Shown in pieces: positions 548-36,847 of a stretch of DNA of 38,443 bases. Every line of letters starts with the position of its first letter. Position 1 is the stretch's first letter. The notes under the pieces are model-generated. The model searched no databases, was not told where the DNA came from, and saw nothing but the letters and a program-made list of their open reading frames with translations. This stretch comes from a virus: positions 1-38,443 of IMG/VR virus record IMGVR_UViG_3300031576_000173; one strand, written 5' to 3'. The position numbers and the translations under genes were made by a program.

Positions 548-868
548 ATGGAAGCCGTAGTGTCCGAAAAAAATCTTCTCCGCAGTCTCCCGGGTCAACT
601 GATCGTCGAGCCAGATCTCGAGGACATGGGCGAAGTCGAAGGCAAGAGCGATGGCGGCATCGTGATCCCAGCCCAAGGAAAGAAACCGGTCCAGTACGAG
701 GCGATTCCCGTTTTCGCCGTCGTCATCACTTCCGCCATCCAGGGTGGCCCAGCGCCCGGGGACACGGTCGTCTTCGACCGCAGCAGCGGAATGCGCTTCG
801 AGCTCGAGGGGATCGTGTACGTCAGCCTCTACGAGGAAAACGTCCGGGCGTGGCTGAGCCGCTCCTAG
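548..868 (+). CDS. GroES-like (Cpn10) co-chaperonin
   Basis: The 106-residue product has the length and layout of a GroES subunit. An N-terminal strand (LPGQLIVEPD, residues 14-23) is followed by a flexible stretch ending in GGIVIP (36-41), which matches the GroES mobile loop whose hydrophobic tripeptide docks on GroEL. The turn PGDTVVFDRSSG (70-81) and a C-terminal strand follow. Phage GroES proteins such as T4 gp31 replace host GroES when GroEL folds large virion proteins. Its place at the head of the morphogenesis operon fits a role in capsid or terminase folding. There is no GroEL in the window, so it would work with the host GroEL. The SD site is weak. The 3' end overlaps the likely terminase start by 19 bases. 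Confidence 0.8.
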   Translation: MEAVVSEKNLLRSLPGQLIVEPDLEDMGEVEGKSDGGIVIPAQGKKPVQYEAIPVFAVVITSAIQGGPAPGDTVVFDRSSGMRFELEGIVYVSLYEENVRAWLSRS

Positions 869-1962
869 ATCTGCCGGAGGATTTCTTCCGAGGCCTCTCG
901 AGACTGCCGGAAGAGAAAAAAGCTTACCACGCGATCGGAGCCCTCCTGGAGCTGATCCCAGACGACGGAGACTTCATCCAGAAGCTCTTCAAGATCGTCG
1001 ACAAGCGAAGCCGGCTCGTCCCCTTCAAGTTCAACCAGGCCCAGCTCGAGCTCCTGCGAGTGATCCAGAGGCTCGAGTCGGAAGGACGCCGGATCATGCT
1101 CTGCGTCTTGAAGGGCCGGCAGATGGGCTGCTCGATCTTCCTGCAGGCCTTTTTGCTCATGAAGGCCCTGCGGCAGGAAAACTCCAACTGCCTCGTGATC
1201 GCGGACCAGGACAAAAACAGCCGCTACATCTTCGGGCTCGCGAAAAGGATGTTCCTCTCGCTCATCTTCCAGCCGAAGACGAAGTATTCGACAAAAGAGG
1301 AGCTGATCTTCGAGGACCCGCTGGGGTCGCGCTACTGGGTGGAAACCGCCCGCAACTTCGCCGCCGGCCGCTCTCGAACGATCCAGCATGTGCACCTCTC
1401 GGAAGTCGCTTACTTTCCCAATGCGTCCGCCACGATGACTTCGCTCGCCCCGGCACTCGTCGACACGCCCGGGAACTGGATGGTCTTCGAGTCGACCGCC
1501 AACGGATACGGCGATTACTTCTACGAGAAGTGGAAACAGGCCGAATCGGGCGAAACCGACCTCGTCCCGGTCTTCCTGCCATGGTACTGGTCGGAGGAGT
1601 ACCAGGAGCCGGAGGGCTCGACCTACCTGCGCGACATCCGGGAAGGGCCCCTGGATGAAGAGGAAACGGTCCTGCGGGAGAAGTACCGGGTCGACGACCC
1701 CCACATCGCCTGGCGCCGCTGGTACATCGCCAACAAGGCCGACGGTGTGACGGAAGTGTTCCACCAGGAATTCCCCACGACCCCGGAAGAAGCGTTCCTC
1801 GTGTCCGGCAGGTGCGTATTCCCCACTGGCGCGATCGAGAGTATGTTGGCGCGAAAGCCCGAACCTCTGTGGAAGGGCGAGCTCGAGGTAAACCTGCAGG
1901 AGGTGCTTCATGCCACTCAAAGCCGGCAAGAGCCAGGAGACGGTGAGCTCGAACATCCGTGA
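850..1962 (+). CDS. Terminase large subunit, ATPase domain only
   Basis: This 370-residue protein is the packaging motor ATPase. The Walker A-like motif is KGRQMGCS (residues 88-95), which lacks the classical GKS lysine as many phage terminases do. The Walker B-like strand is VHLSEVAYF with E185 as catalytic glutamate, and the coupling motif ESTANG is at 214-219. The region EFPTTPEEAFLVSGRCVF near the end is the typical terminus of a terminase ATPase domain. The frame is open far upstream, but the GTG at 850 is the best start: it overlaps the GroES-like gene and has GAGG about 13 bases upstream. The RNase H-like nuclease domain is missing and is encoded separately at 2831-3679. The last 53 bases overlap the next gene. 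Confidence 0.85.
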   Translation: MAEPLLDLPEDFFRGLSRLPEEKKAYHAIGALLELIPDDGDFIQKLFKIVDKRSRLVPFKFNQAQLELLRVIQRLESEGRRIMLCVLKGRQMGCSIFLQAFLLMKALRQENSNCLVIADQDKNSRYIFGLAKRMFLSLIFQPKTKYSTKEELIFEDPLGSRYWVETARNFAAGRSRTIQHVHLSEVAYFPNASATMTSLAPALVDTPGNWMVFESTANGYGDYFYEKWKQAESGETDLVPVFLPWYWSEEYQEPEGSTYLRDIREGPLDEEETVLREKYRVDDPHIAWRRWYIANKADGVTEVFHQEFPTTPEEAFLVSGRCVFPTGAIESMLARKPEPLWKGELEVNLQEVLHATQSRQEPGDGELEHP

Positions 1963-2212
1963 GATGAAGGAATCCGGCCATCCGCAGAAGCAAGCGGTCG
2001 CCGCCTCGCTCAACAAAGCCCGCGAGGCGGGGGCCAGTATCCCCCGCGCCCCCGTCAAGGGCCACCACAGCAACCCAGGCGACGAGCCAAGCGAGCACTC
2101 GCTGCCCGTCGACCATGTGAGCGATTCTGGAGCCGGGCCCTCGGCCAACCCGAGCTTCCCCTGGATCGGGGGAGCGATGAATCAGAAATGGTGCGGTGGT
2201 GGCAAGTCCTAA
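1910..2212 (+). CDS. Small phage protein of the KGKS...PQKQAVA type (DUF6496-like)
   Basis: The 100-residue product opens with MPLKAGKSQETVSSNIREMK and contains SGHPQKQAVAASLNKA. This resembles a small family common in phage morphogenesis regions (pattern KGKS, S-NI, PQKQAVA-AL-KA). The family number is recalled from memory. Its function is unknown to me. It has one of the best SD sites in the window (AGGAGGT at 1898-1904, 5 bases before the ATG), placed inside the end of the terminase ATPase frame. The C-terminal half is polar and rich in Ser, Pro and Gly. It is the first of three genes lying between the two terminase domains. Confidence 0.75.
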   Translation: MPLKAGKSQETVSSNIREMKESGHPQKQAVAASLNKAREAGASIPRAPVKGHHSNPGDEPSEHSLPVDHVSDSGAGPSANPSFPWIGGAMNQKWCGGGKS

Positions 2213-2405
2213 TTTAGCGAAAGAGATCGAAGAGGCGGCTGCCGAACAGCGTCAATTCGAGCTCGCCAAAAGCCTCCTGATCGAGCACCTCGAGCCGGCG
2301 CTCCAACCGCTCATCGAAACGGGCCAGATCAAGTGGGCGGACGTCATCATGCTCAACCTCGTCGTCGAGCTGCGCTGGCTTCGAGAGGGCTTGCTGGATG
2401 CGTGA
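2196..2405 (+). CDS. Small helical hypothetical protein
   Basis: The 69-residue product is mostly alpha-helical by eye, acidic at its start (KEIEEAAAEQRQFELAKSLL) and amphipathic after that. It starts at GTG 2196 (or the next codon, also GTG) inside the end of the previous gene and overlaps the next gene by 8 bases, so translation is probably coupled. The SD site is weak. I do not recognise the family. It lies in the cassette that separates the terminase ATPase and nuclease genes. Confidence 0.6.
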   Translation: MVASPNLAKEIEEAAAEQRQFELAKSLLIEHLEPALQPLIETGQIKWADVIMLNLVVELRWLREGLLDA

Positions 2406-2904
2406 AGAGAATCCGCAAGTCCCTCCGACGGTCCCCCAGGCTCTTGTCGACGACATCGTCCACGGCCGCATCGCGCTCGGGGCGTCCTATCGGGCGCTTG
2501 GGATCAATCCGGAGGATCTCTTCACCTACGTCCACTTCGCCCCCTTCGAGCCGAAGGACCGCTATTACGAAGCGGAAGTTTCTCTCGCCTTTCGGGCGGC
2601 TCCAGACCGCAAGATCCTGGTGGCGGAGCCTGTGGGCGCGAATGACCCGGACGCCGAAGACCTGAAGCTCTCCTCCTACGCCCGTATCTCGACGGAGTAT
2701 TACGAGAGCAAACTGGCGGGAGGAGCGAAAGACAAAGCGAAGCTCGAGAACAAGAAATACAGCGTTCGGCTCGATGCCCTGATCGAACTCCTGCAGACCT
2801 TTCCCTCGGAAGTCGATAAGCTCAAGCGCGATGGAAAACAGCTCGTCGCCATCCTCGTCCCTATCGTGGCTCCCCAAGGGGGCGGGAGCCCGCCAAAACC
2901 CTAG
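2398..2904 (+). CDS. Hypothetical protein between the terminase halves
   Basis: The 168-residue product begins with a helical part containing VDDIVHGRIALGASYRALGI, which could be a helix-turn-helix. A mixed central part and a basic helical C-terminal part (KLENKKYSVRLDALIELLQTF) follow, then a Gly-Pro tail. I do not recognise the family. Position next to the terminase and the possible DNA-binding start make a packaging accessory or small-terminase role conceivable, but nothing proves it. The 3' end overlaps the nuclease-domain gene by 74 bases. A CCC-C run at 2872-2875 lies in the overlap, where a +1 slip would join the two frames. Confidence 0.6.
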   Translation: MREENPQVPPTVPQALVDDIVHGRIALGASYRALGINPEDLFTYVHFAPFEPKDRYYEAEVSLAFRAAPDRKILVAEPVGANDPDAEDLKLSSYARISTEYYESKLAGGAKDKAKLENKKYSVRLDALIELLQTFPSEVDKLKRDGKQLVAILVPIVAPQGGGSPPKP

Positions 2905-3679
2905 GGGCCGGCTCGAGATCTACGAGTTCCCCTCCCCTGGGGAGTCCTACGCCATGGGAGTGGACGTCGCCGAAGGCAAGATCCGGGACGCCGGCCACGA
3001 TCTCGCCTCAATCCTCGTCAAGCAACTGCCGGACTTCTCGGCGATCTCGATCCTGAACTGCCGCAGCCTGAATCAGGCGGGGGCGTATGCGAGCCTCGAG
3101 CCGCCCGCCGTCTTCGCCCGCAAGGTCCTGGTGCTGGCGATCGCTTACAAGGCGCTCGCGGTCATCGAGGCCAACGGCCCCGGGCTCGCCGTGATCCAGG
3201 CCATGGAAAACTACCGCTACCGCCACCTCTACACGCGCTCGGTCTTCGATCGGACCAACAAGACCTGGACGAATCACAAGGGCTTCAAAACCACTTCCCT
3301 TTCCCGCGACATCCTGATCCGGCTCTTCCAGGACGCGATGGGAGACGAGGGGGGGATGTGGATCAAGGACGGGCGCACCTTGGAGGAGATGCGAGCCTTC
3401 CGCTACAACAAGTTCGGCAAGGCCGAAGCGCCCAGCGGCTGCAAGGACGACCTCGTCTTCGCTTCCATGCTCGCGCTCGAGGGCCGCCGGAAGCACTTTC
3501 GGCCCGAGCAAATTCCAGCCGCGGTGCGCTACCAGGGTCATCCCGACCGAGAACACTGGGAGTGGCATCAGGCCTTCATTGACGACAAAACCAAGGAACG
3601 ACAGAATTCCGCCGGCGGGCTGGATCTCAACGACGAAGATTTTGACGAGAAGGATCCCGATTTCGCCGAGGAGTTCTAA
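2831..3679 (+). CDS. Terminase large subunit, nuclease domain only
   Basis: This 282-residue protein is the RNase H-like nuclease half of a large terminase, which cuts packaged DNA. The three acidic motifs are present: GVDVAEG with D45, the AVIEANGPG strand with E113, and CKDDLVFA with D206 and D207. The stretch just before them, GRLEIYEFPSPGESYAMGVD, is the usual junction that follows the ATPase domain in one-piece terminases. Here the ATPase lies about 0.9 kb upstream in a separate gene. ATG 2831 is the only good in-frame start before the domain, but it has no clear SD site and overlaps the previous gene by 74 bases. A +1 frameshift from that gene is an alternative. The C-terminal tail is very acidic. 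Confidence 0.8.
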   Translation: MENSSSPSSSLSWLPKGAGARQNPRGRLEIYEFPSPGESYAMGVDVAEGKIRDAGHDLASILVKQLPDFSAISILNCRSLNQAGAYASLEPPAVFARKVLVLAIAYKALAVIEANGPGLAVIQAMENYRYRHLYTRSVFDRTNKTWTNHKGFKTTSLSRDILIRLFQDAMGDEGGMWIKDGRTLEEMRAFRYNKFGKAEAPSGCKDDLVFASMLALEGRRKHFRPEQIPAAVRYQGHPDREHWEWHQAFIDDKTKERQNSAGGLDLNDEDFDEKDPDFAEEF

Positions 3680-4090
3680 GTGGAAACTGGAGTCCTTGTC
3701 GGGCTGGCCGTGCTGGTTGCTCTCACGGTCGTTGCTCTCCTTTACGCTCTGGCTTTTGTGCGCTCTTGCATGGGAGAGATGCGTCGAATTTATGAGAGGC
3801 AGACCGACGCCGCCTTCCTGAAATCCGTCTCCCGCACCGCCGGAGAATACTCCTCCAACCGAATCGCGCTCGACAAGATGGCCAGCCTGGAAAGAGGAAA
3901 CGGGAACGTTGTTCCCGTTTCGAGGCTCCAGGATGAGGAGCTCGACGAAGCGGCCGCCGCCGTCATGAAGCTGCACCAGGAGCAGGGCCTGCCGTTGCAC
4001 AGCGCAATCGACATCGTCCAAGAGAAGATGCGTAAGATAGATGTAGGGCCCGCTCCCCCGATCGGCGCCCAGGACATCGAGGTCGGCTGA
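3680..4090 (+). CDS. Single-pass membrane protein
   Basis: The 136-residue product has a hydrophobic segment at residues 5-28 (GVLVGLAVLVALTVVALLYA), then a basic stretch and a soluble helical C-terminal part. It starts at a GTG placed directly after the stop of the nuclease gene, and its stop overlaps the portal start (TGATG). The topology suggests an N-terminal anchor with most of the protein on one side of the membrane. The function is not recognised. In this position it could be a structural accessory or a lysis-related protein. Confidence 0.65.
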   Translation: METGVLVGLAVLVALTVVALLYALAFVRSCMGEMRRIYERQTDAAFLKSVSRTAGEYSSNRIALDKMASLERGNGNVVPVSRLQDEELDEAAAAVMKLHQEQGLPLHSAIDIVQEKMRKIDVGPAPPIGAQDIEVG

Positions 4091-6228
4091 TGCCTCTGGA
4101 CGTCACCAAGCTCTCGATCATGCCCCAGTACGATCGGGGCCCCGAGATCCTGACAAACCGCTTCAAAGACGATCGCGAGGCGCTCGCGATGTCGGACGAG
4201 TATTTCAGCCAGGATGCCAGGGAGATCCTGAAGTACAGCTTCGAGAAGCAGTGGTTCATCAACATCGCCTTCCTCATGGGGTATCAGAACCTCACCTGGA
4301 CCGATTGGGCCGGGTCGCTTCGGGAGCCTCGCACTCCTTCCTACCGCATGAGGATCATCACGAACAAGATCCTCCCGCTCGTGCTGCGGCACATCGCCAT
4401 CATGACCCAGACGAAGCTCAACTGGCGGGTCGCTCCGAACTCTTCGGACAAGGATGACATCTCCGCAGCTCGGGTGGGAGATACGATCCTCGAGCACGAC
4501 GAGCACGAGCTCGACCTCGATGAGATTCGTCTCGAGGCCGAATACTGGGCCGCTTGCGCCGGCACGACCTTCCTGAAGCTCACTTTCGACCCCGAAGCCG
4601 GACCCGCCGAGCGGATCTGGATCCATCCCCAGACGAAGCTCCCGATACCGGAAGACGACGCCAAAGCGATCCCAGGCCTCAAGGCGCAGATGGAGGAGCT
4701 CGAATCCTACGTCGAGGTGAGGCAGGGCTCGCCTGTGCTCGAGATGGTGAACCCCTTCCGGATGTACGTCGACCCCTGGGCGGCAAACTGGCGCGAGATG
4801 CGCTGGTGCATGGAAGTGACGGACAAGCCGATGTCCTACTTCTACCAACGCTACGGCAAAGAGAAGGCCGACCAGATCCGGCCCGGACAGCGAGAGGCGC
4901 ATCTCAATTATTTCGAGCGCCGCCTGCTCAACATGAACGGCGTCTTCGGGATCGCGGGCTCCATCCAGTTGCGCGAACCGGAGGACGCGGTCGAGGAGCG
5001 GGTCCTCTTCCGAGCTCCCTACGAAGACGGAAAGGCGAAATTCAAGAACGGCCGCATGATCGTCGTCGCCGGCAATAAAGTCGTGCTGAACGAGGAGAAC
5101 CCCTATTTCAAGATCGGATACGGAAAGCTCAACCGCCACGGATTCCCCTACGAGCCTTTCTTCCACTCTCGCGTCCCGGGGAGGTTCTGGGGAACCTCGC
5201 TCGTCGAGCACCTGATCAGCAACCAGCGGCTCTACAACTACGTCCGCTCGAAGATCGCGGAGGGGTTCCGGATGATGGGGTCGAAGAAATGGATCGCCCC
5301 CCGCGACCTGAATCTGGGCAACCGAAACCTCACCTCCGGGATCGAGGTGCTCGAATTCGACGCGATGAATGCCAACGGCATCCTCCCTCAGCAAGTGCAG
5401 CCCGTGGGGCCGGCGCCCGAATACATGGAGCTCCTGCAGCGCACGGATAACGACATGCAGATGCTGACGGCGCAGCCCGAAGCCGTGCAGGGTGAAGCGC
5501 CCGGTTCCGTTCGCTCGGGTGTGGGAGTGCAGGCGCTGCAGGAGCGGGCGATGCTCATGAATCATCCCCTCATCCGCCAGCGCGAGCTCTCCTGGGGCCG
5601 GATCGGATCGATGGATCTCATGCTGCGCGGCCGGTACACGACCGAACCCATGCTCGTCAAGATCTTCGGCGCCGATCGGGCGATCCAGGTGCGGAAGTTC
5701 ATCGGCGCTGACTTGCGCGACAACTACGACGTGCGTGTCCCAAAAGGCTCACAGGTTCCCGTGGGCAAGGCCGAGCTCAACGAGCTCGCGATCCGCTGGA
5801 CAGAATCGGGGATCTTGAATCCTCAGAATCCCGCCCACCAGCAGGCGATCATCCGCATGACCCGCTTCTCGGAAGGAGAGGAGTGGTTCCGGGAGATGGA
5901 GGCGGATCGATACGTCGCCCGGCGCGAGAACGATCAGATGACGGATCGGGTGCAGCCAGCTTTTCCGCCGGTGAACGTCTTCGACAACGACGAGATCCAC
6001 ATCTACGAGCACAACCTGATCCGAAAATCGGACATCTATGTCAACCTCCACCCGCTCGTTCGCATGGGATTCGACGCCCACTGCGCCAAGCACGAAGAGC
6101 GCCAGGCGCAGCGCCAGCAAGCGATGATGGAGCAGCAAGAAGCAGCGAAGGGAGGCCCCGGTCCCAAAGGAGCTCCAGCCTCACCCTCCCGAGGTTCGCT
6201 CCAGAACGTGAAAGGAATGGCGACATGA
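4090..6228 (+). CDS. Portal protein
   Basis: The 712-residue product fits a podovirus portal, the dodecameric ring at the head vertex through which DNA enters and leaves. Length, position right after terminase and sequence style agree: a helical start, RMRIITNKILPLVLRHIAIM near 90, PFRMYVDPWA in the middle, HGFPYEPFFHSRVPGRFWGTSLVEHL in the wing and stem region, and a Gln-rich tail (QAQRQQAMMEQQEA) near the end. Portals of this group commonly show the VDP and GTSLVE-like elements. The ATG overlaps the stop of the previous gene. The C-terminus is low in complexity, rich in Gly and Pro. Confidence 0.85.
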   Translation: MPLDVTKLSIMPQYDRGPEILTNRFKDDREALAMSDEYFSQDAREILKYSFEKQWFINIAFLMGYQNLTWTDWAGSLREPRTPSYRMRIITNKILPLVLRHIAIMTQTKLNWRVAPNSSDKDDISAARVGDTILEHDEHELDLDEIRLEAEYWAACAGTTFLKLTFDPEAGPAERIWIHPQTKLPIPEDDAKAIPGLKAQMEELESYVEVRQGSPVLEMVNPFRMYVDPWAANWREMRWCMEVTDKPMSYFYQRYGKEKADQIRPGQREAHLNYFERRLLNMNGVFGIAGSIQLREPEDAVEERVLFRAPYEDGKAKFKNGRMIVVAGNKVVLNEENPYFKIGYGKLNRHGFPYEPFFHSRVPGRFWGTSLVEHLISNQRLYNYVRSKIAEGFRMMGSKKWIAPRDLNLGNRNLTSGIEVLEFDAMNANGILPQQVQPVGPAPEYMELLQRTDNDMQMLTAQPEAVQGEAPGSVRSGVGVQALQERAMLMNHPLIRQRELSWGRIGSMDLMLRGRYTTEPMLVKIFGADRAIQVRKFIGADLRDNYDVRVPKGSQVPVGKAELNELAIRWTESGILNPQNPAHQQAIIRMTRFSEGEEWFREMEADRYVARRENDQMTDRVQPAFPPVNVFDNDEIHIYEHNLIRKSDIYVNLHPLVRMGFDAHCAKHEERQAQRQQAMMEQQEAAKGGPGPKGAPASPSRGSLQNVKGMAT

Positions 6229-6737
6229 CCCAGGAAGCCAAGGAACCCAAGAACGAAAGAATCAAGCCCGAGACCACCCCCAAGGATCCCGAGGAGACGG
6301 GCAACTGGATGTGGCTTTGCCCCTACTGCACGATGCCCGCTCTCATCTTCCCGGGCGAGCAGCCCCCCAAGTGCGGGATCCCGATCGAGGAGCTCGAGTG
6401 CGACATCAAGAAGGATGGGTACCGCTCCAAACACCGCCACATGCCCATCTGCTCCCAGTGCGGGATGCGCTTGGGGCTCGCCCACGACGGGGGGATCGAA
6501 GGCGACCATGTGTACGAAGTGGACCGATGGTGCCGCGGGATGGGGAAACCCATCTCCGCTTACGGGTACAAGATCCGAGGAACCCAGAAGAGCCCGGAGT
6601 TTTGGGAGAAGGACAAGTACGGCGCCGTGATCCCATCGAAGGAGAAACAGCGCCGGCTCTCGGTGCTCGGCTCCCCCAACGACCCCGAATGGGTGGAGCG
6701 GCAGAAGATCTATGCCGAGAAAATTGCTCAAGGTTGA
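6225..6737 (+). CDS. Cys-rich, probable zinc-binding protein
   Basis: The 170-residue product carries CPYC (C32, C35), C50, C59, CSQC (C76, C79) and C103, a spacing that fits one or two zinc ribbons. It has a charged disordered N-terminus and a polar C-terminus. The start is ATG 6225, overlapping the portal stop (ATGA), with AAAGGAA 8 bases upstream. The frame is open earlier inside the portal gene, but that part reads as an Arg-rich shadow. The function is unknown. It lies in the virion region and could bind nucleic acid or act as a structural clip. Confidence 0.7.
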   Translation: MTQEAKEPKNERIKPETTPKDPEETGNWMWLCPYCTMPALIFPGEQPPKCGIPIEELECDIKKDGYRSKHRHMPICSQCGMRLGLAHDGGIEGDHVYEVDRWCRGMGKPISAYGYKIRGTQKSPEFWEKDKYGAVIPSKEKQRRLSVLGSPNDPEWVERQKIYAEKIAQG

Positions 6738-15420: not shown

Positions 15421-15734
15421 TGCATCCTAACGATAGCAGATTCGGGTACAAAACATTCCGAACGGCCGACGCCTTCACTCCGGTGGACGGAGTTGTGGTC
15501 ACGACGAAGAAGGCAAAGTTGACCGGCATTTTTATTGCGACTGCGGTTGGGCCAGTTGACATCTACGATCAAGGTTCCGGCGCTTTGGTGGCTGGGAATC
15601 TCAAACTCACGATTCCGGTCAATACAATCCCGAGCCTGATAGATAATCTCGCGGCGTATTTCCCCAACGGGATTACTGTCAAGGCCCTCACTGCCGCCGG
15701 TGCGGTTTCTGGGACGCTCGAAGAATTCAACTGA
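15420..15734 (+). CDS. Small beta-rich virion protein
   Basis: The 104-residue product is made of short strands (VVVTTKKAKLTGIFIATAVGPVDIYD and on) and ends with SGTLEEFN. The pattern of a Lys-rich turn, a strand pair, IYDQGSG and a late NGITVKAL turn recurs in small phage structural proteins. It overlaps its neighbours on both sides by a stop-start overlap. The likely role is a small tail or decoration component. Confidence 0.5.
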   Translation: MHPNDSRFGYKTFRTADAFTPVDGVVVTTKKAKLTGIFIATAVGPVDIYDQGSGALVAGNLKLTIPVNTIPSLIDNLAAYFPNGITVKALTAAGAVSGTLEEFN

Positions 15735-18700
15735 TGCCGGCCGCAGTCACAGCAGCCCAGCTCACTCCGATCCCCCGTCTTGGCGGGGGTCTCTCCGATA
15801 AGGCAAAACCCGCCCTCGTTCGTCTTCCCTTCTGGACGGAGATGCAGAATTTCGGATTCCAAGGGGAATCCCTCAAGAAACGATCCGGACATCGATACAT
15901 CACGCGCAAGAAGGCTCGCGCCCCTATGTTCCAGTTCCGCCGGGAAGAGAGGCCGCTTGGGGAGAACCAAGGTCTTACCCTCATGCGGAATGGCCTCACC
16001 ATCACTCCCACCAACGGCTTCTTGAACGCTATGTTCTCAAACACCTGGACCATCGAGATCCTCTTGCACCTCGATAAGCACCCGACCGGGACCAATGTTT
16101 CGGATCTTTTCACCAGCAAAAACGGCAACCCCTCCGCTGGGGTGCTGAATTGGCAGATTCAGGGAATAGGAACGGGAAGCCCCAGAAAGCTCGTGGTTGC
16201 GCATCGCAACGTCTCTGGTACCGTGACAACCCTCACTTCTGCCAGCGATGTCCCGCTAGGCGTCCCGGTAATGATTTCCCTCGTCCACACGATGACGACG
16301 ACTGCCGGAGATACCTTGATTCTCTATTTCGATGGAGTGCTGGAAGCGAGCGACACGGCGATAGCTGGGGCGGACAAGAGGACGTTGAGTATCACGGGGC
16401 AGCCCGGATTTGGGCACGATGACCAGTCGTCCGCTTATAGCTATGGCCTCTTCGGACGGCTGGGCGAGATTCGCTGCTGGTCATTGGCTCGCAGCGCCGC
16501 TCTGATTCTCGCCAATATCCGCCGTCAGCTTTTGCTGACAGATCGGACAGGACTTTTCGCGTACTACCCGATGAACAAGGCCGGAAAGTACGAGATCGAG
16601 GATGAGAGTGGGCACCAGAACAAAATGTTCACAGTTCCCTTCGTGCCGCGATTCACGAACTACGGCCTTGAGCGGTCAGGATATTATTTTGATGGCAGTT
16701 GGTCCAATATTCTGATTCCGGTCACCGGCGGCTTCTGGTCGGAGTTCCTCAAAAACATCCAGGGTGGTACCAACCAGAAGTGGACCATCGAACTCGGGTG
16801 GACGCCGACTCGTTACGCCAATGGCGTCGGGGCCCTGGAAACAATTCTCGACTTCCGCTACACGGCCCTCGTCGCCATCAAGGAAACCGGGGTGCTGGAA
16901 ATCCGATGGTACACGGCAGCGGCGGATGGTTCCTACACGGCAACCAACACGACGATCCCGCTCAATCCCGGCCAGCGGTACATGATCTCTCTCGTCCGCA
17001 CGAACACTCTGGGGACCTGCTACATCGACGGGGCTTCGGATCACACGGTCGTCCTTGCCAGCACCGCGACAGGGCTCGCGTCAGATTCATGGTGCATCGG
17101 GGGCGGCTTCGATCAGACCAATAAGACAACAAGCAACATGGCAGCCGGGTATCTTGACGAGCTGCGTTTCTGGGGGCGTGACATTAGTTCGGCCTCTGTG
17201 GGAGCCAATTTTTCCCACAAGCTCCCCACGCTCTCCTACCGTGAAGAGCCCAGCGGCCAGCACATCGACGGGAAGTTCACCGGGTACAAGAACACTCGCA
17301 TCGTGCGTGGCGGGCCTGGAGCCGATACCACTTTCGACACGACGACGTTCTTGGGCCAGTTCAACAACGACGGCGACGGCAACGCCTTCTCCTTCATGGT
17401 CTTCCTGAAGGACGGGACAGTGCGCCACATCGCCTCGACCACCTCCACGGTGACGACTCTCAGCACCTCTTACAATCCCGGTCTCAACGCGAACAACGGC
17501 TTGGAGGCCGCGTTTACAAAACTGCTTCTTCTGATCGACGGATCCGTGAACACGCTCGATTTCGACGCTTTTCCGCTGGTTCCACGCCTGGCTCGTGTCG
17601 CCGCCAGCTCGGAGGTACCACAAATTCAATATGGCGCCGCAGTCCAATTCGACTCTCGCTCGATTGCCCCGGCTCTTAATCCCAACGGGCGCTTCAATCT
17701 CGCCGTCACCAATGCTGGCATGGCGGCTCCGCTCGATCTCCTGCCGCGCTTTGAGGAGGGCTTCGCCACTGCGACGGAGCAGCCGGTTCTGGGAGAGTTT
17801 TTCTGGAAGCGATCAAACGGGGACCGCTTCCACATCGCAGGAGCTGGGCACTCTCTCTACTGGAACTCGGATCGCTGGAGTCGCTTCCGGCCCTTCTCGG
17901 CGGCGAAAGATCCAAACGGCGCTTCGCTGCTACTGCTCAATAAGTTCGAGAAGCCGGAAGACCAGCGGCCATACCTAACTGATGCCGTTAAAATTCCCCA
18001 TGCCTCCAACAAAGGAATCGACTTTCCGACCGGGGCGACGAGGACGTTCGAGTTCTGGCTGTACCCGTTCGATGTCGGTCCAGGATTTCGCACGGTCCTC
18101 TCCAAGATCAGCGATGCTGGATTTATGGAATACGTCATGGGGGTCATCAATGGTGACCTCGTAATGCAATGGAATAGTGACGGCGGAACCAAGTCGCGGA
18201 TCGTTCGCACTTCCGGTGCGCCCGTCAAGACCCGCCAATGGCAGCACGTTGCCTTCACCGTGACCCAGGATGGAGTCACAGCGGCAATCTATTGGAACGG
18301 AGCGAGCCAACCCCAAACGGTTACGGGAACGGTCGGGACTGCGGATACGACGACGAACGCCCTTTACATCGGCCACGACCCTAATCGCTTCAACCCGGTC
18401 GTCGGGGCTGTGGGTCCCGCGTACTTCGGGCACATCGACGAGCTGCGAATCAGTAAGTCGATTCGCTACTCGGGCGTGACCTTCGACGTTCCAGATGGTC
18501 CCTTCTCGGACGATGCCAACACAGTTGTCCTAATCCATTTCGACGACGCTCAGGATGTGATCGTGACGGATTCCAAGGGGCTCGCCTCACCGGAGACGGT
18601 GAAGGCGCACGGCGAGCTGACCGCAGAGCCATGGATCCCGATCGCCAAGAATCTCGACTCCAACGGCATCACGACTCCCTGGCGGTTCTCGGCGAGCCGT

Positions 18701-20485
18701 GACCGTCTCTTCGCGACAAACGGCGTCAACTTTCCGGTTCGAATCGACCATGGAGGACAGCTCGCCGCGGCAAATCTTGGGTTCACCGTGACGCGCATGG
18801 GGATCAAGGCGCCGGCGGTCGCGTCGACAAAGGTGAGCGAGGCGGCAGGCGGCTTGCTTGCGGCGAGCTCCACCTTCATCACTCGATACACCTATTTCAA
18901 TTCCAGGAAGGGCATCGAGTCGGGTCCGAGCCCGCAGTTGAGCTTTGTGACCGGCGGGTCCGCGGCCGCTGTGAAAATCAGCCTCGTGCCGAGCGATGAC
19001 TCCCAGGTGGACACGATCCGGATTTACCTCTCGCAACCTTTTTTATCTTTCACCTTCCGGATCGCCTCAATTTCGCCAGAGACTCGGGAATTCGAGATCA
19101 ACGTCGATCCGGCGACTGTTGGAGCCGGGGCCGCGCTCGACATCACGAACGGAGAGGCGCCGAAGGCGAAGTTTCTGCTGATCTCTGGTGACCGCTCTTT
19201 CATGGCGAATACTCCTGGGTTTCCCAATTCCTTCGCAGCAAGCCACCCGGACTTCGAGGAGGTCTTCGATCCGCTGGATACCAAGAATCTGAACTCCAGA
19301 TATGGAGAGCCTCTCTCCGGTCTCTCGGCTTCTTACGGCCGGATCTACGCCCATCAACCCCAAACAGTTTTTGCCGCCTCTCCGTCGGCAAAATTTCTCG
19401 ACTTCTCGATCCAGGAAGTCCAGGTCGACCAGGGCGCTCTGGACGGAGGCGCAATGGTGAACGTGGACGGGACGGATTACTTTCGAACCTACCGCTCGAT
19501 CGTCGCCTTCTCTGGATCCCAGAATTCCGACATAGCTCAACCGATCGAATCGAGCTACCGCGGTCGATCCGAGGATCTCACCAATTTCCCGGGATTCGAA
19601 TCTTCCGACACCAATCTCATCGCGTCGATCTTTTGGCCCGGTGCGAACGAGATCTGGTTCACCGGCCGGCGCAGGGGAACCGTGCGGAACGACCTCATCC
19701 TGATCCAGAATCTCACGGCGGAGGCGAAGCCGTGGACGATCTACAAGGGCCCCCAGCTCTCGACCCTCATCGTGGGTGAGGACATCGACGGCAAGAAGGT
19801 GATCTTCGCCGGCACCTATCAAGGATACATCGTCCAGCTCGAGACGGGCCAGATCGATGGCTCGGTGAAACCCAAGCAGACGAATGACGTCAGCCCGGTT
19901 GTCACGGGAGCCGTCCAGGCTGGCAGCACGACGACCTCGATCGTGACCTTGGGCACTCTCGACACGCTGGCGGAAGGACACTCCGGAGTCTTCCTGACCG
20001 TCATCCGCAGAAACGCGGCCGGAGAGATCACCCAGAGCGACCGCAAGCTCATTCTCTCGAACACTTCGACGACGATCACGCTGGAAGACGCGCTCTCTTT
20101 CACTCCGGCCGCTGGCGACACCTGGACGATTGGCGCGATCGAAGCCTTTGCGACGTCAGGTTGGCTCGACATGGATGACCCCGCGCTCTCGAAGAAGTGG
20201 GAATATCTCGATCTTGTGTTCCGCCCGATTACCGGCAGTCTCGAGATCTACTGGAAGGCGAGTGCTGGCTCCGGGCAAACGATCGAGGATGTCTTCACCC
20301 GTTCGACGGCAGCTCGCAAGTCGGCTTCCCTCACCAAGGGATTCACCGAGCAGGTCGTGCTCGACAAGAAGAACCGCGGCAAGCTTCTGCGATTCCAGCT
20401 CTACGAGATCGACAGCGAAGTGAGCCCCGAAATTTACAGCGCCGCGCTGCGATGGGAGCCAGAAACCGTGGGGCACGGAGCCTGA
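15734..20485 (+). CDS. Tail nozzle-like protein with three LamG-like domains
   Basis: The 1583-residue product begins like a podovirus nozzle (T7 gp12 or P22 gp10 type): GGLSDKAKPALVRLPFWTEMQNFGFQGESLKKRSGHRYI. Three concanavalin A/LamG-like jelly-roll domains are inserted at about residues 104-280, 349-497 and 769-938. They are seen from TxTxEILLHLD-like starts and the endings LGEIRCWSLARS, LDELRFWGRDIS and IDELRISKSIRYS. The rest is beta-propeller-like, with GDRSFMANTPGFPNSFAAS near 1153-1171 and SSDTNLIASIFWPGANEIWF near 1290. LamG domains bind glycans, so the protein may both plug the tail and touch the cell surface. Confidence 0.7.
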   Translation: MPAAVTAAQLTPIPRLGGGLSDKAKPALVRLPFWTEMQNFGFQGESLKKRSGHRYITRKKARAPMFQFRREERPLGENQGLTLMRNGLTITPTNGFLNAMFSNTWTIEILLHLDKHPTGTNVSDLFTSKNGNPSAGVLNWQIQGIGTGSPRKLVVAHRNVSGTVTTLTSASDVPLGVPVMISLVHTMTTTAGDTLILYFDGVLEASDTAIAGADKRTLSITGQPGFGHDDQSSAYSYGLFGRLGEIRCWSLARSAALILANIRRQLLLTDRTGLFAYYPMNKAGKYEIEDESGHQNKMFTVPFVPRFTNYGLERSGYYFDGSWSNILIPVTGGFWSEFLKNIQGGTNQKWTIELGWTPTRYANGVGALETILDFRYTALVAIKETGVLEIRWYTAAADGSYTATNTTIPLNPGQRYMISLVRTNTLGTCYIDGASDHTVVLASTATGLASDSWCIGGGFDQTNKTTSNMAAGYLDELRFWGRDISSASVGANFSHKLPTLSYREEPSGQHIDGKFTGYKNTRIVRGGPGADTTFDTTTFLGQFNNDGDGNAFSFMVFLKDGTVRHIASTTSTVTTLSTSYNPGLNANNGLEAAFTKLLLLIDGSVNTLDFDAFPLVPRLARVAASSEVPQIQYGAAVQFDSRSIAPALNPNGRFNLAVTNAGMAAPLDLLPRFEEGFATATEQPVLGEFFWKRSNGDRFHIAGAGHSLYWNSDRWSRFRPFSAAKDPNGASLLLLNKFEKPEDQRPYLTDAVKIPHASNKGIDFPTGATRTFEFWLYPFDVGPGFRTVLSKISDAGFMEYVMGVINGDLVMQWNSDGGTKSRIVRTSGAPVKTRQWQHVAFTVTQDGVTAAIYWNGASQPQTVTGTVGTADTTTNALYIGHDPNRFNPVVGAVGPAYFGHIDELRISKSIRYSGVTFDVPDGPFSDDANTVVLIHFDDAQDVIVTDSKGLASPETVKAHGELTAEPWIPIAKNLDSNGITTPWRFSASRDRLFATNGVNFPVRIDHGGQLAAANLGFTVTRMGIKAPAVASTKVSEAAGGLLAASSTFITRYTYFNSRKGIESGPSPQLSFVTGGSAAAVKISLVPSDDSQVDTIRIYLSQPFLSFTFRIASISPETREFEINVDPATVGAGAALDITNGEAPKAKFLLISGDRSFMANTPGFPNSFAASHPDFEEVFDPLDTKNLNSRYGEPLSGLSASYGRIYAHQPQTVFAASPSAKFLDFSIQEVQVDQGALDGGAMVNVDGTDYFRTYRSIVAFSGSQNSDIAQPIESSYRGRSEDLTNFPGFESSDTNLIASIFWPGANEIWFTGRRRGTVRNDLILIQNLTAEAKPWTIYKGPQLSTLIVGEDIDGKKVIFAGTYQGYIVQLETGQIDGSVKPKQTNDVSPVVTGAVQAGSTTTSIVTLGTLDTLAEGHSGVFLTVIRRNAAGEITQSDRKLILSNTSTTITLEDALSFTPAAGDTWTIGAIEAFATSGWLDMDDPALSKKWEYLDLVFRPITGSLEIYWKASAGSGQTIEDVFTRSTAARKSASLTKGFTEQVVLDKKNRGKLLRFQLYEIDSEVSPEIYSAALRWEPETVGHGA

Positions 20486-23006: not shown

Positions 23007-24239
23007 ATGCCGAGCGGCGCTTTTTATGAGGGTCTTGCGGGCCTTGTGGGGGGCGGCATTGGGGGCTTCCAAGGCATGCGCGGCATGCAAATGGAGAGCG
23101 AGAAGATCGCCCAGTCCGCCAGGGAAGCCGAGAACCTCAACCAGTACAGGCTCTCGACACTCGCGATCAACCGCGAGCAGCTCCAGCAGACCGCCGATTA
23201 CCACCGAGGACTTCTCGAGCACAACAAGGATATCCGCCAGATGACCCGCGACGACCAGAAGGAGAGAGCTGGTCGCGAGGCTCGCGAGCTCGATCTGCGC
23301 TTTGGGCGCGGGAAGATGAACGAGAAAATGGATAGCGGCATGCTTGGGCAGTATGTCCCCCAAGGCATCGCTGATCTCATGACTCCCACTTACGGCGAAG
23401 CCGCCGAGCAGGGAATCATCGGCACGGATGAAATCCCAGGTATCGGATTGGAATGGGCCCAGCACTTGGAATCTGTGCGGCACAACCGTGAGGCCGAGGA
23501 AACCGCGAAGATCTCCAAAGGACTCGCCACGCCGGCGGAGATCGAGAGGATCCGCCGCAGGATGGTGGCGCTCGAGGGGATTCGCGGTCTTTTGCCGGAG
23601 ATTGGAGCTCAGTATCCTGGATCGATCGCGCCTGCTGGCCCAGGCCTGATCGGAGTCGGCGGAGTGTCGAGACCTCCATTCGAGCCGGGCACCGAGATGG
23701 GTCTGCCGCCGATGGATCTCACCGGGATCCTGGAGACGCTGCAGGAAACGCGAGACATCGAATCTCTCAGCCCAGAGCAGCAGCAGCTCGCTTACAAAGT
23801 CCGCGGGCTCGGCATTCCCAAGGGCGGTTTTTACGACGTCGTTCGCATGATCCAAGGCAGAACGCAGAGTCCAACCCACACGAATGCTCCTGGCAGCTCC
23901 TCGATGAGGGCCGGAGGTCCGGAAGCTCAAGGGCCTGGAATCTACGGCGAGGGGATGCAGGAAGGGCAGGCGATCGACCTCTTCGGACAGGCGACCGAGA
24001 AGTTCGGCGCAGGTCAGCTCGAAGAGTTTACTCCCGATGAGATGAACGCGATCGAGCACATCCTGACCTACTTCCCTCCCGATTCTCGTGAAGCGAAACT
24101 TGCGAGGAAGCTGATCGGGCAGATGGAATCCTACTTCAACAGCCCGGCCTTCCAGGAAGGCTGGATGTATCGCAATCCCCAGGGCCAGAAGGTCGAAAGC
24201 CCCTACGGTCCCATGATGAAAATCGGCGGGGGGATATGA
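23007..24239 (+). CDS. Internal virion protein candidate
   Basis: The 410-residue product starts at ATG 23007. An in-frame TTG one codon earlier is less likely. It has a Gly-rich hydrophobic start (LAGLVGGGIGGFQGMRGMQM), a long charged coiled-coil-like helix at about 30-105, and a loosely structured remainder with a helical C-terminal region (DEMNAIEHILTYFPPDSREA). The stop overlaps the start of the giant gene. It likely belongs to the ejected set with its neighbours. No family is recognised. Confidence 0.55.
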   Translation: MPSGAFYEGLAGLVGGGIGGFQGMRGMQMESEKIAQSAREAENLNQYRLSTLAINREQLQQTADYHRGLLEHNKDIRQMTRDDQKERAGREARELDLRFGRGKMNEKMDSGMLGQYVPQGIADLMTPTYGEAAEQGIIGTDEIPGIGLEWAQHLESVRHNREAEETAKISKGLATPAEIERIRRRMVALEGIRGLLPEIGAQYPGSIAPAGPGLIGVGGVSRPPFEPGTEMGLPPMDLTGILETLQETRDIESLSPEQQQLAYKVRGLGIPKGGFYDVVRMIQGRTQSPTHTNAPGSSSMRAGGPEAQGPGIYGEGMQEGQAIDLFGQATEKFGAGQLEEFTPDEMNAIEHILTYFPPDSREAKLARKLIGQMESYFNSPAFQEGWMYRNPQGQKVESPYGPMMKIGGGI

Positions 24240-27200
24240 ATGGGCAGGAAGTCCTTTCGCCTGAAGACCGGCTGAAGCAGACCTTCGCCAAGCTCGAAGA
24301 GATCGACCGCAACAACCAGTACCAGGCGGCTTTCACCAAGATCCGCGACACCTACATCGGCCAACCTTCTCCGGGGATCACGGCTGAGATGGAGCAGGCA
24401 ACGGACGCCGCGATCCAATCGGTCGATTACGATGACATCAAGGAGAAGCTCTTCGAGGACGCCGCTCGCGTTCGATCTGGAAAGTCGATTTACGACAAGA
24501 GCTTCCAGTTCGTCGTTCAGAACCAGCTCCCGTGGTGGGAAGGATTTCTGCCGGAGTCTTTCCAGAGCGAAGTCGTTGCTCCACAGGCGCCATCTAATGC
24601 GATGGGCCGCATCGTGCACAAGACCGGCGAAGCCCTCGTCGGCGGCTTGACCGGAGGCCTTCTCGGTGGAATGGATCCGCAATACGTCAAGCGGATTGGC
24701 AAAGACGCGATGGCCGGCGCGGAGCTGCCCGAGGGGATGACACCGGAGGAGGCTGAAGAATGGGCATCCGTTGGAGTCGCTGCCGGGTATCAGAGCCTGC
24801 TCAATCCGCAGTCGAAGCCGGAGGCGTGGCTCACGACGCCGCTGGAAACGGCCGGGGGAATTTACGGATTCATCCTCGGTCCCGGCAAGCTGATCAAGGG
24901 CGTAGGTCTCGGCTTCAAGGCGCTCGCAGGCGCGGCAGCAATGACGGAAAAAGGAGTGAAGGGAGCCGAGGCTGCCGGCCGAATTCTCGGTGGTGGCGTT
25001 ACGGGTGCCGTCCCTGAGCTGGCAAAACTTCTCGAACCGAGCCCAGCCGAACAAAAGATCAACGAGCGCGGCGGGCCAGGAGCTCAAGAGGTTCAAGTCG
25101 GCACAAAGTTTCTCGGTGGTGCTCTAAACTGGGCGATCTTCGAAGCATTAACTCATGGCGCTTATCGCCACTTGCCTCCCAAAATGAAGCTCGCCTTGAA
25201 CGATCAAGGCCAGCTCGTGCCAAGGCTCGCCCATCCCTTCCGGGAATCACTCCTGAAGGGACCGCTCGTGACTTTCGGCGCCGTGAAGGCTGGCGCGTAT
25301 GGGGCAGAAGCTCTCGAGCAGGCGCTTTCTCCCAAAGACGTCAGCCAGATGGTCGGGATGCTCAAGGATCTCGCCAATGATCGTGTGGACCCCGGGAAGA
25401 TCGTGAGTTCCTCTTGGACGGATACCTTTGGCGAGCTCGGCGGCTTCATCCTTGTGAGCGGTCTCAGTGGACCTTTCCACAAGCTCTTTCCTGGCGGCGA
25501 GAAGGTCGGCGAGCTGTATGCCGCGGCCGTTGAGAAAGCCCGCGGACAGATGGGCAAAGAGCTCGAGCCCATGGTCGCGGCGCGATCTTCCGAGCTCGAG
25601 GCGGAGCCTTTCCCTTGGCTCGACCCCACGCCACTACCTCGCATCCCGCCGCGTCTGGCCGGGATGATCGACATCGCTTCGAGGCAGATCACGCCAGAGG
25701 AATCGATGAAGCTCGCCGAGCGGATCGGTGATCTTCCTCTCGTCGAGAAGCTTCGCTCGGCGATCGAGCGGCGCAATGAGCCCGAAGAGAAGGAGCTGCG
25801 AGAGATCCAAAGCGAGCTCGAGTGGGAGCAGGGAGAAGCGGCCAAGGATTACGCGGAGCAGATGGGTCGGGACATTTTCGAGCGCACCGGTATTCACCCG
25901 ACCTACGACGACATGGAGGGGCTCTTCTTCGAAGCGGTCGGACGCAATCCGATCACGGATGCTCAGATCGAAGCGCGGTTCGCGCAACGCCGAGCCGCCG
26001 AGGAGCTCGAGCTGCAGCGCCAGGCGGTAGAAGAGGAAGCCATCACGCCTGAGAAGCTGCCGCGGCCAGAGCCTCCTACCGAGGTCGTGCCGCAGGTGCC
26101 GGAGCCCGAGCCGCCGCCGCCCCCTGCTGCGCCAGAGAAGCCCGTTCCTCCGGGTCCTCCCGAGAAGAGAGTGCAACCCTACGCTCCGGAGGGCCCCACA
26201 CCGGCGGCGCCGGTCGAGGAGGTGAAGCCCGTCACCGAAGCTGCGGCGAAGGAGATCGGCGTCACACCGGCCGAGAAGCCGACGAGTGCGGCCGAAGCTG
26301 TGAGGCGAAAGACCGTGAAGGTCTCCGGGCTCGATGCGGCCGCAGCCGAAGCGACTCAGCGCCGAGCCGAGCGGCGCAAGCGTCTTGGTCCAGCCCTCGA
26401 GCGGGGCGCCCTCTTCCCCAAGGATAAGCCGATCCCTACCGAGGAAGTGATCGAGGACTTCAAGGACCAGGCGATTCTCGCCGCCAAAGCCATGAAGGAT
26501 ACGGGCCAGTCCGTCTCGAAATGGCTGCGCCGATTGCGGGTGGATGACCCTCGATCCTACGAATTCATCGCTCCGTTCCGGGACAAGTTCGAGAACGAAG
26601 TGACCGGGCTCCTGCAGCAAGGCCGCGATCCCATCCCTCCGAGTGCCCAAGAGATCGAGGAGATGAAGAAGGCTTCCGAGGAGTTCCGCACGAACCCCTT
26701 CATCCCCCCGAGCGAAGCCAAGGCCTGGTTGAAGACTCTGAAGAAAAGAGCCGGCACTCCTCTCACGAGTCCCGAGGTCGAAGATCGTCCGGCGAACCGC
26801 AAGCGTCTGGATCTCGAGAAGGAGGGGAAGACCTTCGAGACCCTTCCCAAGGTCGAAGATTACGTTGAGCGGGTCCGGCGGCTCTTCGAGGAGAATCGGG
26901 ACCGGGCGGAAGATGACGCCTTCTGGTACGAGGATGCGCTGGAGCCCTTCGTGCGTCGATGGGGTCCGGTCGAAGGCAAGAAGAGGTTTCTTGCCGCGCT
27001 CTTCGCCAACCAGAACATCGATCCCGTGGGCGCTGTCGACAATTCCGTGCTGGCTTGGGAGATCCTGAACGAGGCGCCGCTGTACAAGAAGCCCGGCCTC
27101 GCCGAGGAGAAGCTCTACGAGATCCTGAAGGGGAAGCCGGTCGAGCACAAGGGCCGCAAGATCTGGGACTTTGCGGACGCAGGGCTTGGGATCGAGAGCC

Positions 27201-30200
27201 GTTCTCTTTTCGGCAATGCGCCGGAAGCCGGCCAGCCCTCGCCTGGGGACGTATGGTGGGCCCGGGTCTCTGGCCTGATCGACGCGAAGTATATCCGCAA
27301 GCTCGCCAAGGCTTTCCCCGAGCGGGCGAAGGAGCTGCGCCGGCTTCGGATCGATGTCGCCGAGAAGCCGGATGGCACCCTGAATCGGCTCTCGGACGGC
27401 CAGTACGAGTACACATCCCGCTTCGCCAACGAGGCGGCGAAGCTGCTGAACGAGCGCCGGGTTGGTGGGCTCGAATGGAATGCAGCTCGCGCCATGGCGG
27501 TGGGATGGAGCGACGTCCAGAGGGTGGTGGGCGAGGAACCGGTTCACCCCAAGCAGTTCCTGCCCGAATACCGGATCGCTTTCGAGGTGGCGCCGGCGAA
27601 GGACAGCGAGGCTCACAAGCTCTACGGAGATCGGATCAAGAGACTCTCCCCGGAGGGCCAGCTTCGCGTCATGGACCGCGTGGGGCAGACGATCGTAGAT
27701 GCCGCGGTCGATGGCGCTCGGGTCGAACCGGGGGACCTCACCCGGGGGTATGGCGGGTACGAGGGAGACCTCAACGCGGCCGGCTTCTTTCGCGGGATCA
27801 TGTCTCGGATCGGCGTCCAGAACTCCGCGGACCTCCTGCAGTATTACGGCGAGCAGAACGAGGTGTACGGAGGCAGGCGCCTCTCGGAGGGGAAGACGCC
27901 CTCGCTCATCGTGTACCAGCCGCAGGGCAACCAGCTCGCCAAACCCGAGGTGTACCGGCGAATCTGGGAAAAGCTCAAAAGGTTTGACCCCGCTTTTGCC
28001 GAAGGATTTCAGCCGGGCGACTTCACGATCGAGGGCAAGCGGGTCCCGGGCATGGAGTTCTTCCTCTTCGGCAAGCTCGGGGAGCTCGCCGGAGACCGTG
28101 GCCGCGTTGAGAAAGCGTTTGCGGATGCTTTACAGGGTGAGGGTTTTGGAGTAGAATTCGACTTTGGAAGGAACAAGACCTATGGAACCCCAAGACAAAA
28201 CTGGGAAGCCGACCCCCGTGGAGAGGGCATCCTATCGCGCCTTCGTGAACGCGGATTTCTACAAGAACAACTCGACGCCTTTCGTTCTCATAAGGAGCGG
28301 ATCCGGGAGGCTCTCCTCGACGCCATTGCTGCCGAGGAATCTGGAAAGCCAGTTGAGGGAGCAGTCCGCACAGAAGCAGAGCCCATCCCCCCAACCCCCG
28401 AGCGAGCCCGCACCATCTCCGAGTGGATCGACGCCGAAGCCCTCGAAGCAAAGAGGCGCAAAGAAGCCCGTTCCAGAGGGAGGCTCGCCGAAGCCGGGTT
28501 CCTTGGGTTCGGAGGCCGGCCCCCAAGAGAGCTTGCCCGGCGCCTGAAAGAATCGGGCATCACCGAAGAGGATCTCGAGGCCGGCCGCATCATTCGGGAC
28601 GAGTCCATTCTCGCGGCCAAGTGGATTCTCGAGAAGGGCCGCTCCGTCAAGCGGTACTGGGAGGACCTCGAGACACAGGATCCCAAGTGGTCGAAGTTCA
28701 TCTCTCCCTACCGCCAAGAGATCGAGCGTCAGATCGCAATCCAGCTCCCCGTGTACAAGCTCGCGGGCCGCTTCTCGGGAGTACAAGACGAGATCGAAAA
28801 GATGGCGGGCACCGTGGAATCCCTCTCCGCGCAGATCGAGCGCACTGGCACCTTGCCGAAAGAGGAGCGGGAGAAGTTCGCCGCGCTCGAACGGGCGACA
28901 ACGACCGAGGGCGAGGTTCGAAAGCTGCGGTTTTCGATCGAGGACGTCGAGGCGGTCCAGTCGGGTCTCGTGACTCTCGCCGATCGGATCAAGGGGTTTC
29001 GCGACGAGCTCTCGAGCTTCACCGGATCTCCCGACCAGAAAGACATCCTCGAGAAGACGCTCGGCATTTACGACAAAGCTCTGCGGGCGAAGGCGCTGGA
29101 GTGGGGTGCGCTTCGTCTTGCGGCCGGGCGCACTCTGCACGTCTGGAATCGGCCGACTTCGATCTTGAACGACACGGCGGCGATCCTGAAAGAAGCCGGC
29201 GTCAAGATGCGAGACCTTCCCGAGCTCGCCGCCAACCTGCCGATCCTGACGCAGATCGCCCAAGACATCGCTACCCTTTCGCGGCGCGGTTTGAGCGGCG
29301 AAGAGGTCGCCACGATTTCCAAGCGCCTCGTCAAGAACTTCGGCCGCTTCAACCGCTACCAGTACATCCGCCTCACTTCCTTCATGCTCGACATCGGCTC
29401 GGATCTCACCCATGGATTGGTCGCGGGTCCCGGCTCGGTGGGCCGCATCGCCGGCCACGATCTCGTCCATCTCTTCAAGCAAGCTCGAGCTGGAGAAGCG
29501 CCGAGCTTCCCGATGACCCGGGCCGCGTTCCGGGTGATGTGGGAACGCTACTATCCTGGCAACGGCTGGAAGCCGAAGCCTCTGCATCCCGACATCGAGG
29601 AAGGCCTCGAGAAGACGGCTTTGGGTGGAGAGGTCAGCAAGGAGATGGGCTGGGGGATCATGACGACGAGGGAAGACCTCGCGGACAAGATCCTCGACAC
29701 GGTGACGGGCGCCTCGATCGAGGTGAAAAGCCTGGCGGATACCTTCTTCGGCCGGCTTGCAGCTCACGCCGTGCTCTACCGGGAGGCCTACAAGGCCGCG
29801 GAAGCGAAGAAGCTCACCGGCACCGAGTACAAGGAGTTCGTCGAGGACTTCGTGAATGACCCTCCCGGTCCCGCGAAAACGATGGCAATCGAAGAGGGGC
29901 GCAAGGCGAAGTTCAACCGCGAGCTCTCCCGATTCGAGAAGATGATGGCAGGCTCCGAAGTGACTGCCTGGACGCTCGAGCCTTTCATCCGGTTCGGGTT
30001 CCAGGCGACCCGAGCCTTCGGGGAGATGCTGGGAATCGATCCAGGGATGGCGAAGAAGATCGCCACGAAGGGTGGCCGCTCCCAGCTCACCGCGGAAGAG
30101 ATCGGGGAGTGGATCGGCAAAGCGGCGACGGGTTGGGGGGCGCTCGCTCTTCTCTCGTCCTGGAAGGATGACGAGGGCCGAAGCTGGTACGACCGCTGGG

Positions 30201-36360: not shown

Positions 36361-36591
36361 TCACCTTTCCTTTCTCTTTCCAAACGCCCAGCTAGAAAGC
36401 TTGTCATTCAGCGCTCTGATTCTTTCTTTCGCGGCAGCCGGGAGGACGATGGTTGCCTCCTGATCCTTCGGCGCCTCTTTCGAGATCCACCAAACCCCGT
36501 TGTACAGGTGAAGGAATCTCCTCTGCCCACTGGCATCCGCGTTGGCTTGCGCCTGACGCTTCGCCTTTTTGAAATCACTTCCCGCGTTCAT
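36361..36591 (-). CDS. Small basic protein, first gene of the minus operon
   Basis: The 76-residue product starts at ATG 36591, with AAAGGAAAG upstream. The frame is open to 36900, but the extension crosses the operon promoter and is rejected. It reads MNAGSDFKKAKRQAQANADA and is basic and helical at both ends, with a Trp-rich middle (YNGVWWISKEAP). The stop is 4 bases from the next start. The function is unknown. Confidence 0.6.
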   Translation of the reverse strand: MNAGSDFKKAKRQAQANADASGQRRFLHLYNGVWWISKEAPKDQEATIVLPAAAKERIRALNDKLSSWAFGKRKER

Positions 36592-36622
36592 GCTTCTTTC
36601 CTTTCTCTCTGGACTTGAGACC

Positions 36623-36662
36623 AGATCTCCCACAACGGGAGAGGCCTTCGGGAAGGAGATCT
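36623..36662 (-). promoter_or_regulatory. Alternative hairpins in the minus operon leader
   Basis: In the roughly 170-base leader between the candidate promoter and ATG 36591, AGATCTCC (36623-36630) can pair with GGAGATCT (36655-36662). An overlapping TCTCCC (36626-36631) can instead pair with GGGAGA (36637-36642). The two pairings exclude each other, so the leader could switch shape. No known riboswitch is recognised. Confidence 0.3.
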
Positions 36663-36770
36663 CTTTCTCCCTCCCCTCTCGGTATTTCCCTTTCAGCATC
36701 CTATGGGGTGGCGGGCATCCCGTTTTATCCACCGTCCTCGCTGAAACCTTGTTGTCAAAGAACTCAAGGA

Positions 36771-36799: not shown

Positions 36800-36808
36800 A
36801 GAGGGAAG

Positions 36809-36836: not shown

Positions 36837-36847
36837 TCCTTCCCACT

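Follow-up and report, generated by a model that had tools for sequence, protein, structure and literature searches.

A T4 gp17-type large terminase probably built from two separately translated chains, with three genes at the position of the hinge

Models of DNA packaging treat the large terminase (TerL) as one chain, in which a hinge passes force between an ATPase and a nuclease domain. Two kinds of departure from this plan have been described: (i) in most Arthrobacter cluster AY phages, the ATPase and nuclease domains of TerL are encoded by consecutive genes (PMC11920828); (ii) in ICP1, the Jug phages and Mic1, terL is interrupted, being spliced or intein-bearing (PMC10448857, PMC12363816, PMC7156551). 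Here, we describe IMG/VR virus record IMGVR_UViG_3300031576_000173 (38,443 nucleotides, the whole of which is referred to as the window), an uncultivated phage in which a TerL of the T4 gp17 type probably consists of two separately translated chains. The features on which this reading depends are the following.

850 to 1962, plus strand: TerL ATPase chain, 370 residues, GTG start; TerL-like up to nucleotide 1890 (GELEV), with a non-homologous tail beyond.
1898 to 1904, plus strand: Shine-Dalgarno sequence AGGAGGT of M1, seen in the sequence just past the end of the ATPase homology.
1910 to 2212, plus strand: M1, first intervening gene, 100 residues, of which the N-terminal 40 match the small phage family phrog_2423.
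2196 to 2405, plus strand: M2, second intervening gene, 69 residues; coding-like frame score, no known relatives or family.
2398 to 2904, plus strand: M3, third intervening gene, 168 residues; coding-like frame score, no match found.
2831 to 3679, plus strand: TerL RNase-H nuclease chain, 282 residues; TerL-like from nucleotide 2906 (GRLEIY), with catalytic D45, E113 and D206/D207.

Residues 39-331 of the 850-1962 protein match the PHROGs family phrog_2, 'terminase large subunit' (E 1e-22), the family-conserved K88, R90, Q91, G93, S95, E185 and T216 are all present, and the protein carries the Walker motifs and the coupling motif of the ASCE ATPase domain of gp17-type TerL. The AlphaFold2 model of this protein (48-row alignment) has a pLDDT of 89, and its top PDB match in Foldseek is the T4 gp17 ATPase (E 9e-14). 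The 2831-3679 protein matches phrog_24361, 'terminase' (E 8e-18), and has the three acidic metal ligands of the RNase-H-fold nuclease of gp17-type TerL; D45, E113, D206 and D207, as well as D68 and G151, are invariant among 48 nuclease relatives. Residues 30-222 of the nuclease model (AlphaFold2, 48-row alignment) mostly have pLDDT >90, and the Foldseek comparison to the PDB placed T4 gp17 first, with the RB49 gp17 nuclease and the G20c TerL nuclease also among the best matches. A Pfam search gave no significant match for either half; with profiles built with fused relatives, T4 gp17 was found from the ATPase half and T4-type gp17 from the nuclease half. These results confirm that the TerL ATPase domain is complete in 850-1962, as is the TerL RNase-H nuclease domain in 2831-3679, the closest solved relative of each, by profile and fold, being gp17 of T4 or T4-like phages.

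Homology to one-piece TerL ends at GELEV and picks up at GRLEIY, that is, in the hinge, where one-piece relatives have a short linker (median of 25 residues between domain envelopes). The two homologous parts are separated by 1,015 nucleotides, starting just ahead of the M1 Shine-Dalgarno site and finishing one base past the M3 stop, and the three overlapping genes cover 995 of these. Thus, instead of one polypeptide with a hinge, the locus has separate open reading frames (ORFs), an ATPase-only and a nuclease-only gene, with the break between the domains as in other two-gene TerLs. M1, M2 and M3 share the codon use of the other genes of the phage, M1 most weakly, and the borders of the ORFs are where the favoured frame changes; the phrog_2423 motif at the start of M1 occurs in many phages. 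No TerL likeness is seen in the final ~20 residues of the ATPase ORF; model confidence is low there, and most of this stretch overlaps M1 in another frame. The layout suggests that genes became lodged in the hinge, within which the ATPase frame acquired a new stop and the nuclease frame a new start.

An interval of this kind could be removed by RNA splicing to give a normal one-piece TerL, as spliced terL genes are known from ICP1 and the Jug phages (PMC10448857, PMC12363816); for the window, we consider this extremely improbable. No self-splicing intron was found in 1700-3200, as no Rfam intron family, group I and group II included, matched this region at the gathering threshold or even at E<=5 (the only sub-threshold Rfam match had an E of 4.1), nor did any match eight other split loci. 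Three overlapping coding frames take up the interval, so that an intron core would have no room; none of M1, M2 and M3 matches a homing endonuclease, and two relatives, L070 and L221, are split without any interval.

The exact start of the nuclease chain is unproven, because no Shine-Dalgarno site is evident ahead of ATG 2831. In the codon scoring, the first 25 codons come out as non-coding, and the first ~24 residues are not TerL-like, have low model confidence and mostly overlap M3 in another frame. Moreover, the M3 stop lies one base ahead of the nuclease homology, and the +1 frame runs on into GRLEIY. These features would suit an M3-nuclease fusion, either because the ribosome slips by +1 at CCC_TAG_G (2899-2905) or because the assembly has a one-base error there. 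We regard such a fusion as unlikely: CCC_TAG_G arises by chance, M3 has no relatives that would allow a test of conservation, and the nuclease has its own start in the relatives L224, L221 and L070. It should be noted that the fusion would still keep ATPase and nuclease on separate chains.

An earlier note on this DNA had described the first protein as an ATPase half that stops after the usual end of that domain, the second as carrying three acidic nuclease motifs, and the break as lying in the natural linker, with three overlapping genes between the halves, the first of them with a strong Shine-Dalgarno site. The phrog_2 match, conserved residues and gp17 fold agree with the first description, the invariant residues with the second, the one-piece alignments (1890/2906) with the third, and the ORFs together with AGGAGGT with the last. 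The claim that the nuclease starts at the usual linker holds for the homology, which begins at the hinge, but not for the first ~24 residues. A non-terminase identity of the second protein, which was to count against the idea, was not found, profile and fold searches both returning terminase nuclease.

Downstream of the nuclease gene, the window continues as follows.

3680 to 4090, plus strand: small gene, located between those for nuclease and portal, the product of which has a hydrophobic N-terminus.
4090 to 6228, plus strand: P22-like portal protein, presumed terminase docking site (PF16510, E 5e-21; phrog_156, E 7e-35).

That both TerL halves have such matches, correctly ordered and shortly ahead of a P22-like portal gene, is not due to chance. 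Directly upstream of the TerL ATPase gene, and overlapping it by 19 nucleotides, is an unexpected neighbour, a GroES/Cpn10-like co-chaperonin gene (548-868; PF00166, 24.1 bits versus a cut-off of 21.1). Among the ORFs searched, none was recognised as a small terminase: M3, suggested by eye, was not supported by PHROGs, Pfam or PDB sequences, and the other by-eye candidate, ORF 36569-37426, has no family match either. Elsewhere in the window, a Type II hammerhead ribozyme (36011-35946, minus strand; RF02276, 38.5 bits versus a gathering score of 37) overlaps a DUF932 gene (36032-34932, minus strand) at its 5' end. A 2285-residue protein with no PHROGs match is encoded by 24236-31093, the largest gene in the record, and 15734-20485 encodes a virion-like protein of 1583 residues with three Laminin_G_3/concanavalin-like domains.

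Single-protein scans with the ATPase, nuclease and portal gave no close relatives, or one distant relative, and alignment-based scans of IMG/VR were therefore needed. The scans by terminase comprised the best 80 loci per half out of several hundred, and all counts of relatives, including those from the portal and capsid scans, refer to the matches listed and are not survey frequencies. Among the terminase matches examined, 138 records had both domains in one ORF, and 23 further matches had an ATPase ORF, nearly always full-length, the nuclease part of which was missed by the profile. The one-piece form is the rule in the TerL family of the window (nearly all of about 160 relatives). The only other split among these matches is L070, where a gp17-type TerL is broken at the same hinge (ATPase 4902-5936, nuclease 5929-6633, overlap of 8 nucleotides). 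Jasmine gp12/gp13, suspected of being a split nuclease from gene sizes, was rejected, as the TerL of Jasmine is one-piece.

The scans with portal and major-capsid alignments listed matches with an identifiable TerL that was one-piece or full-length in 80 cases, truncated in six and split in 10, including the window. The other split cases are L224, L200, L209, L213, L221, L255, L273, L276 (the last two with identical TerL sequences) and the GenBank podovirus ctLwi270 (MW202554), and they fall into three types. (i) L224 (IMG/VR 3300009610_000382), which has the closest capsid among the matches listed (35%), shares with the window the TerL family, the presence of an extra gene in the gap, and the gene order (ATPase, 69-residue gene, nuclease, small gene with a hydrophobic start, portal, capsid), and is syntenic with it. 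Its ATPase, the 5' end of which is off the contig, ends at ...GILSYDGE (939), at the same strand as the conserved part in the window; a single gap gene (1035-1244), unrelated to the three of the window, follows, and the nuclease starts from GTG 1241, overlapping the stop of the gap gene. Identity to the window is 34% for the ATPase, 30% for the nuclease (C-terminal tail included) and 31% for the portal, and there is no detectable sequence similarity between the small genes, although they occupy the same place. (ii) In L200, L209, L213 and L221, the last with a TAATG stop-start overlap, the ATPase is of a different subfamily, and the nuclease, likewise stand-alone, matches the nuclease profile of the window. 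(iii) L255, L273/L276 and ctLwi270 are related to the window by portal or capsid (ctLwi270 by both) and resemble it in having a two-gene TerL, with a 62-residue gene between the halves in ctLwi270; unlike in the window, this TerL is of a third family (phrog_38). In all split loci examined, the nuclease gene lies beside the ATPase and portal genes.

Some of these ATPases carry intein-like sequences. In the ATPase half of ctLwi270 (6344-7999 in L169), a stretch ahead of CQQMNNP is intein-like and weakly matches an intein-bearing NCBIfam model, whereas the intein-free ATPases of L255 and L273 run through this point. In the stand-alone ATPases of L209 (6525-8513) and L213 (6676-8733), the Walker A P-loop itself is interrupted by an intein-like insertion of ~340 residues (GANRIGK / insert / S).

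It is very unlikely that the arrangement stems from an error of assembly, or that the phage is defective and its terminase decayed. The record is metagenomic and has no exact terminal repeat, but catalytic residues and coding signal are kept in both halves, the other structural genes are open, and the same succession of ATPase, extra gene, nuclease, small gene and portal is seen in L224, an independent contig. The arrangement recurs in relatives, and we therefore take it to be a recurrent two-chain terminase and not an artefact. The earlier note had proposed a search for relatives with the split layout, and these exist; its premise that the halves normally form one polypeptide fits the 138 one-ORF records. 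Its view that a two-piece terminase would be unusual stands insofar as the one-piece form dominates the family, and has to be softened in the light of the cluster AY precedent (PMC11920828) and of the recurrence among portal and capsid relatives.

We propose that the ATPase chain ends past the last strand of its domain (G-x-L), that the start of the nuclease chain corresponds to the point where a normal hinge, in its second half, leads into the RNase-H fold, and that the three extra genes occupy the position of the hinge. The chains may then assemble non-covalently at the portal through a gp17-like ATPase-nuclease interface, the ATPase driving translocation and the nuclease cutting when packaging starts and when it ends, and both would package DNA together. 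With such assembly and division of labour, the covalent hinge would be dispensable in the lineage of the window. With less confidence, the split may predate the separation of the window from L224, the gap genes having come and gone later.

The strongest rival is a serial model, in which there is no single motor: the ATPase chain alone translocates, and a separate nuclease is recruited only for cutting at initiation and termination. The packaging ATPase of phi29 works without an active nuclease domain. The chains in the window are unlinked, T4 nuclease-site mutants package pre-cut DNA (PMC9958956), and stand-alone nucleases of the window's family adjoin ATPases of two subfamilies, as if exchangeable, all of which would suit the serial model. 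Conversely, T4 translocation requires both domains in full-length gp17 (PMC9958956), and the constant position of the nuclease gene beside the ATPase and portal genes suits a shared complex. On balance, we find the serial model rather doubtful. Returning to the two-chain motor, three points weigh against it: separated ATPase and nuclease domains of T4 stay active but lose translocation, and the hinge has been called essential (PMC9958956); the start codon of the nuclease gene has no clear Shine-Dalgarno site; and the deep branches of the domain trees are unresolved, so that a common origin of the splits is undecided. In the best tree, six stand-alone nucleases of portal and capsid relatives group together (support 61/19), and a clade of the window and L224 was not rejected for either domain (approximately unbiased test, p 0.49 and 0.32). 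Profile hits, rather than resolved trees, point to a possible exchange of the nuclease module between subfamilies, that of the window, L224 and L070 versus that of L200, L209, L213 and L221. We hold only tentatively, at somewhat less than an even chance, the broader view that a podovirus-like lineage has given up the covalent hinge called essential in T4 and uses a non-covalent gp17-type motor, with a nuclease exchangeable between ATPase subfamilies and unrelated genes in the gap.

A natural gp17-type TerL cut at the hinge makes the one-chain model testable, as either the domains reassemble via their interface or the nuclease stays outside the translocating machine; such a system could show whether the packaging motor needs its two halves joined. 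In addition, split genes can be overlooked or misnamed when phages are detected, or placed in phylogenies, by their terminase.

Compared to T4 gp17, the window has the same ATPase and RNase-H domains, domain order and catalytic residues, and likewise an adjacent portal gene; however, gp17 is one chain with a covalent hinge, whereas the window has two genes with three others between them. In the terL of ICP1, Jug and Mic1, the coding sequence is also interrupted, but splicing restores one chain; in the window, the interval is coding and no intron or intein is detectable, and the lack of a splicing element sets it apart from these genes. Cluster AY phages, represented by BillyTP gp2/gp3, share with the window separate genes with the break between the domains (PMC11920828). 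The BillyTP genes are, unlike those of the window, consecutive, with an overlap of 17 nucleotides and no intervening genes, and their TerL belongs to another family (phrog_19179/phrog_21277/phrog_9) with no BLAST similarity to that of the window. Cluster AY phages with a two-gene TerL form plaques (PMC11920828), and the arrangement is therefore compatible with phage growth. With the overlapping cluster AY genes, the halves could still be fused by a frameshift; in the window and L224, by contrast, the intervening genes exclude this. A two-gene TerL is thus not in itself unprecedented but a real, if rarely noted, design; new with respect to the open-access literature are its occurrence in a gp17-type lineage, the intervening genes and the recurrence across lineages.

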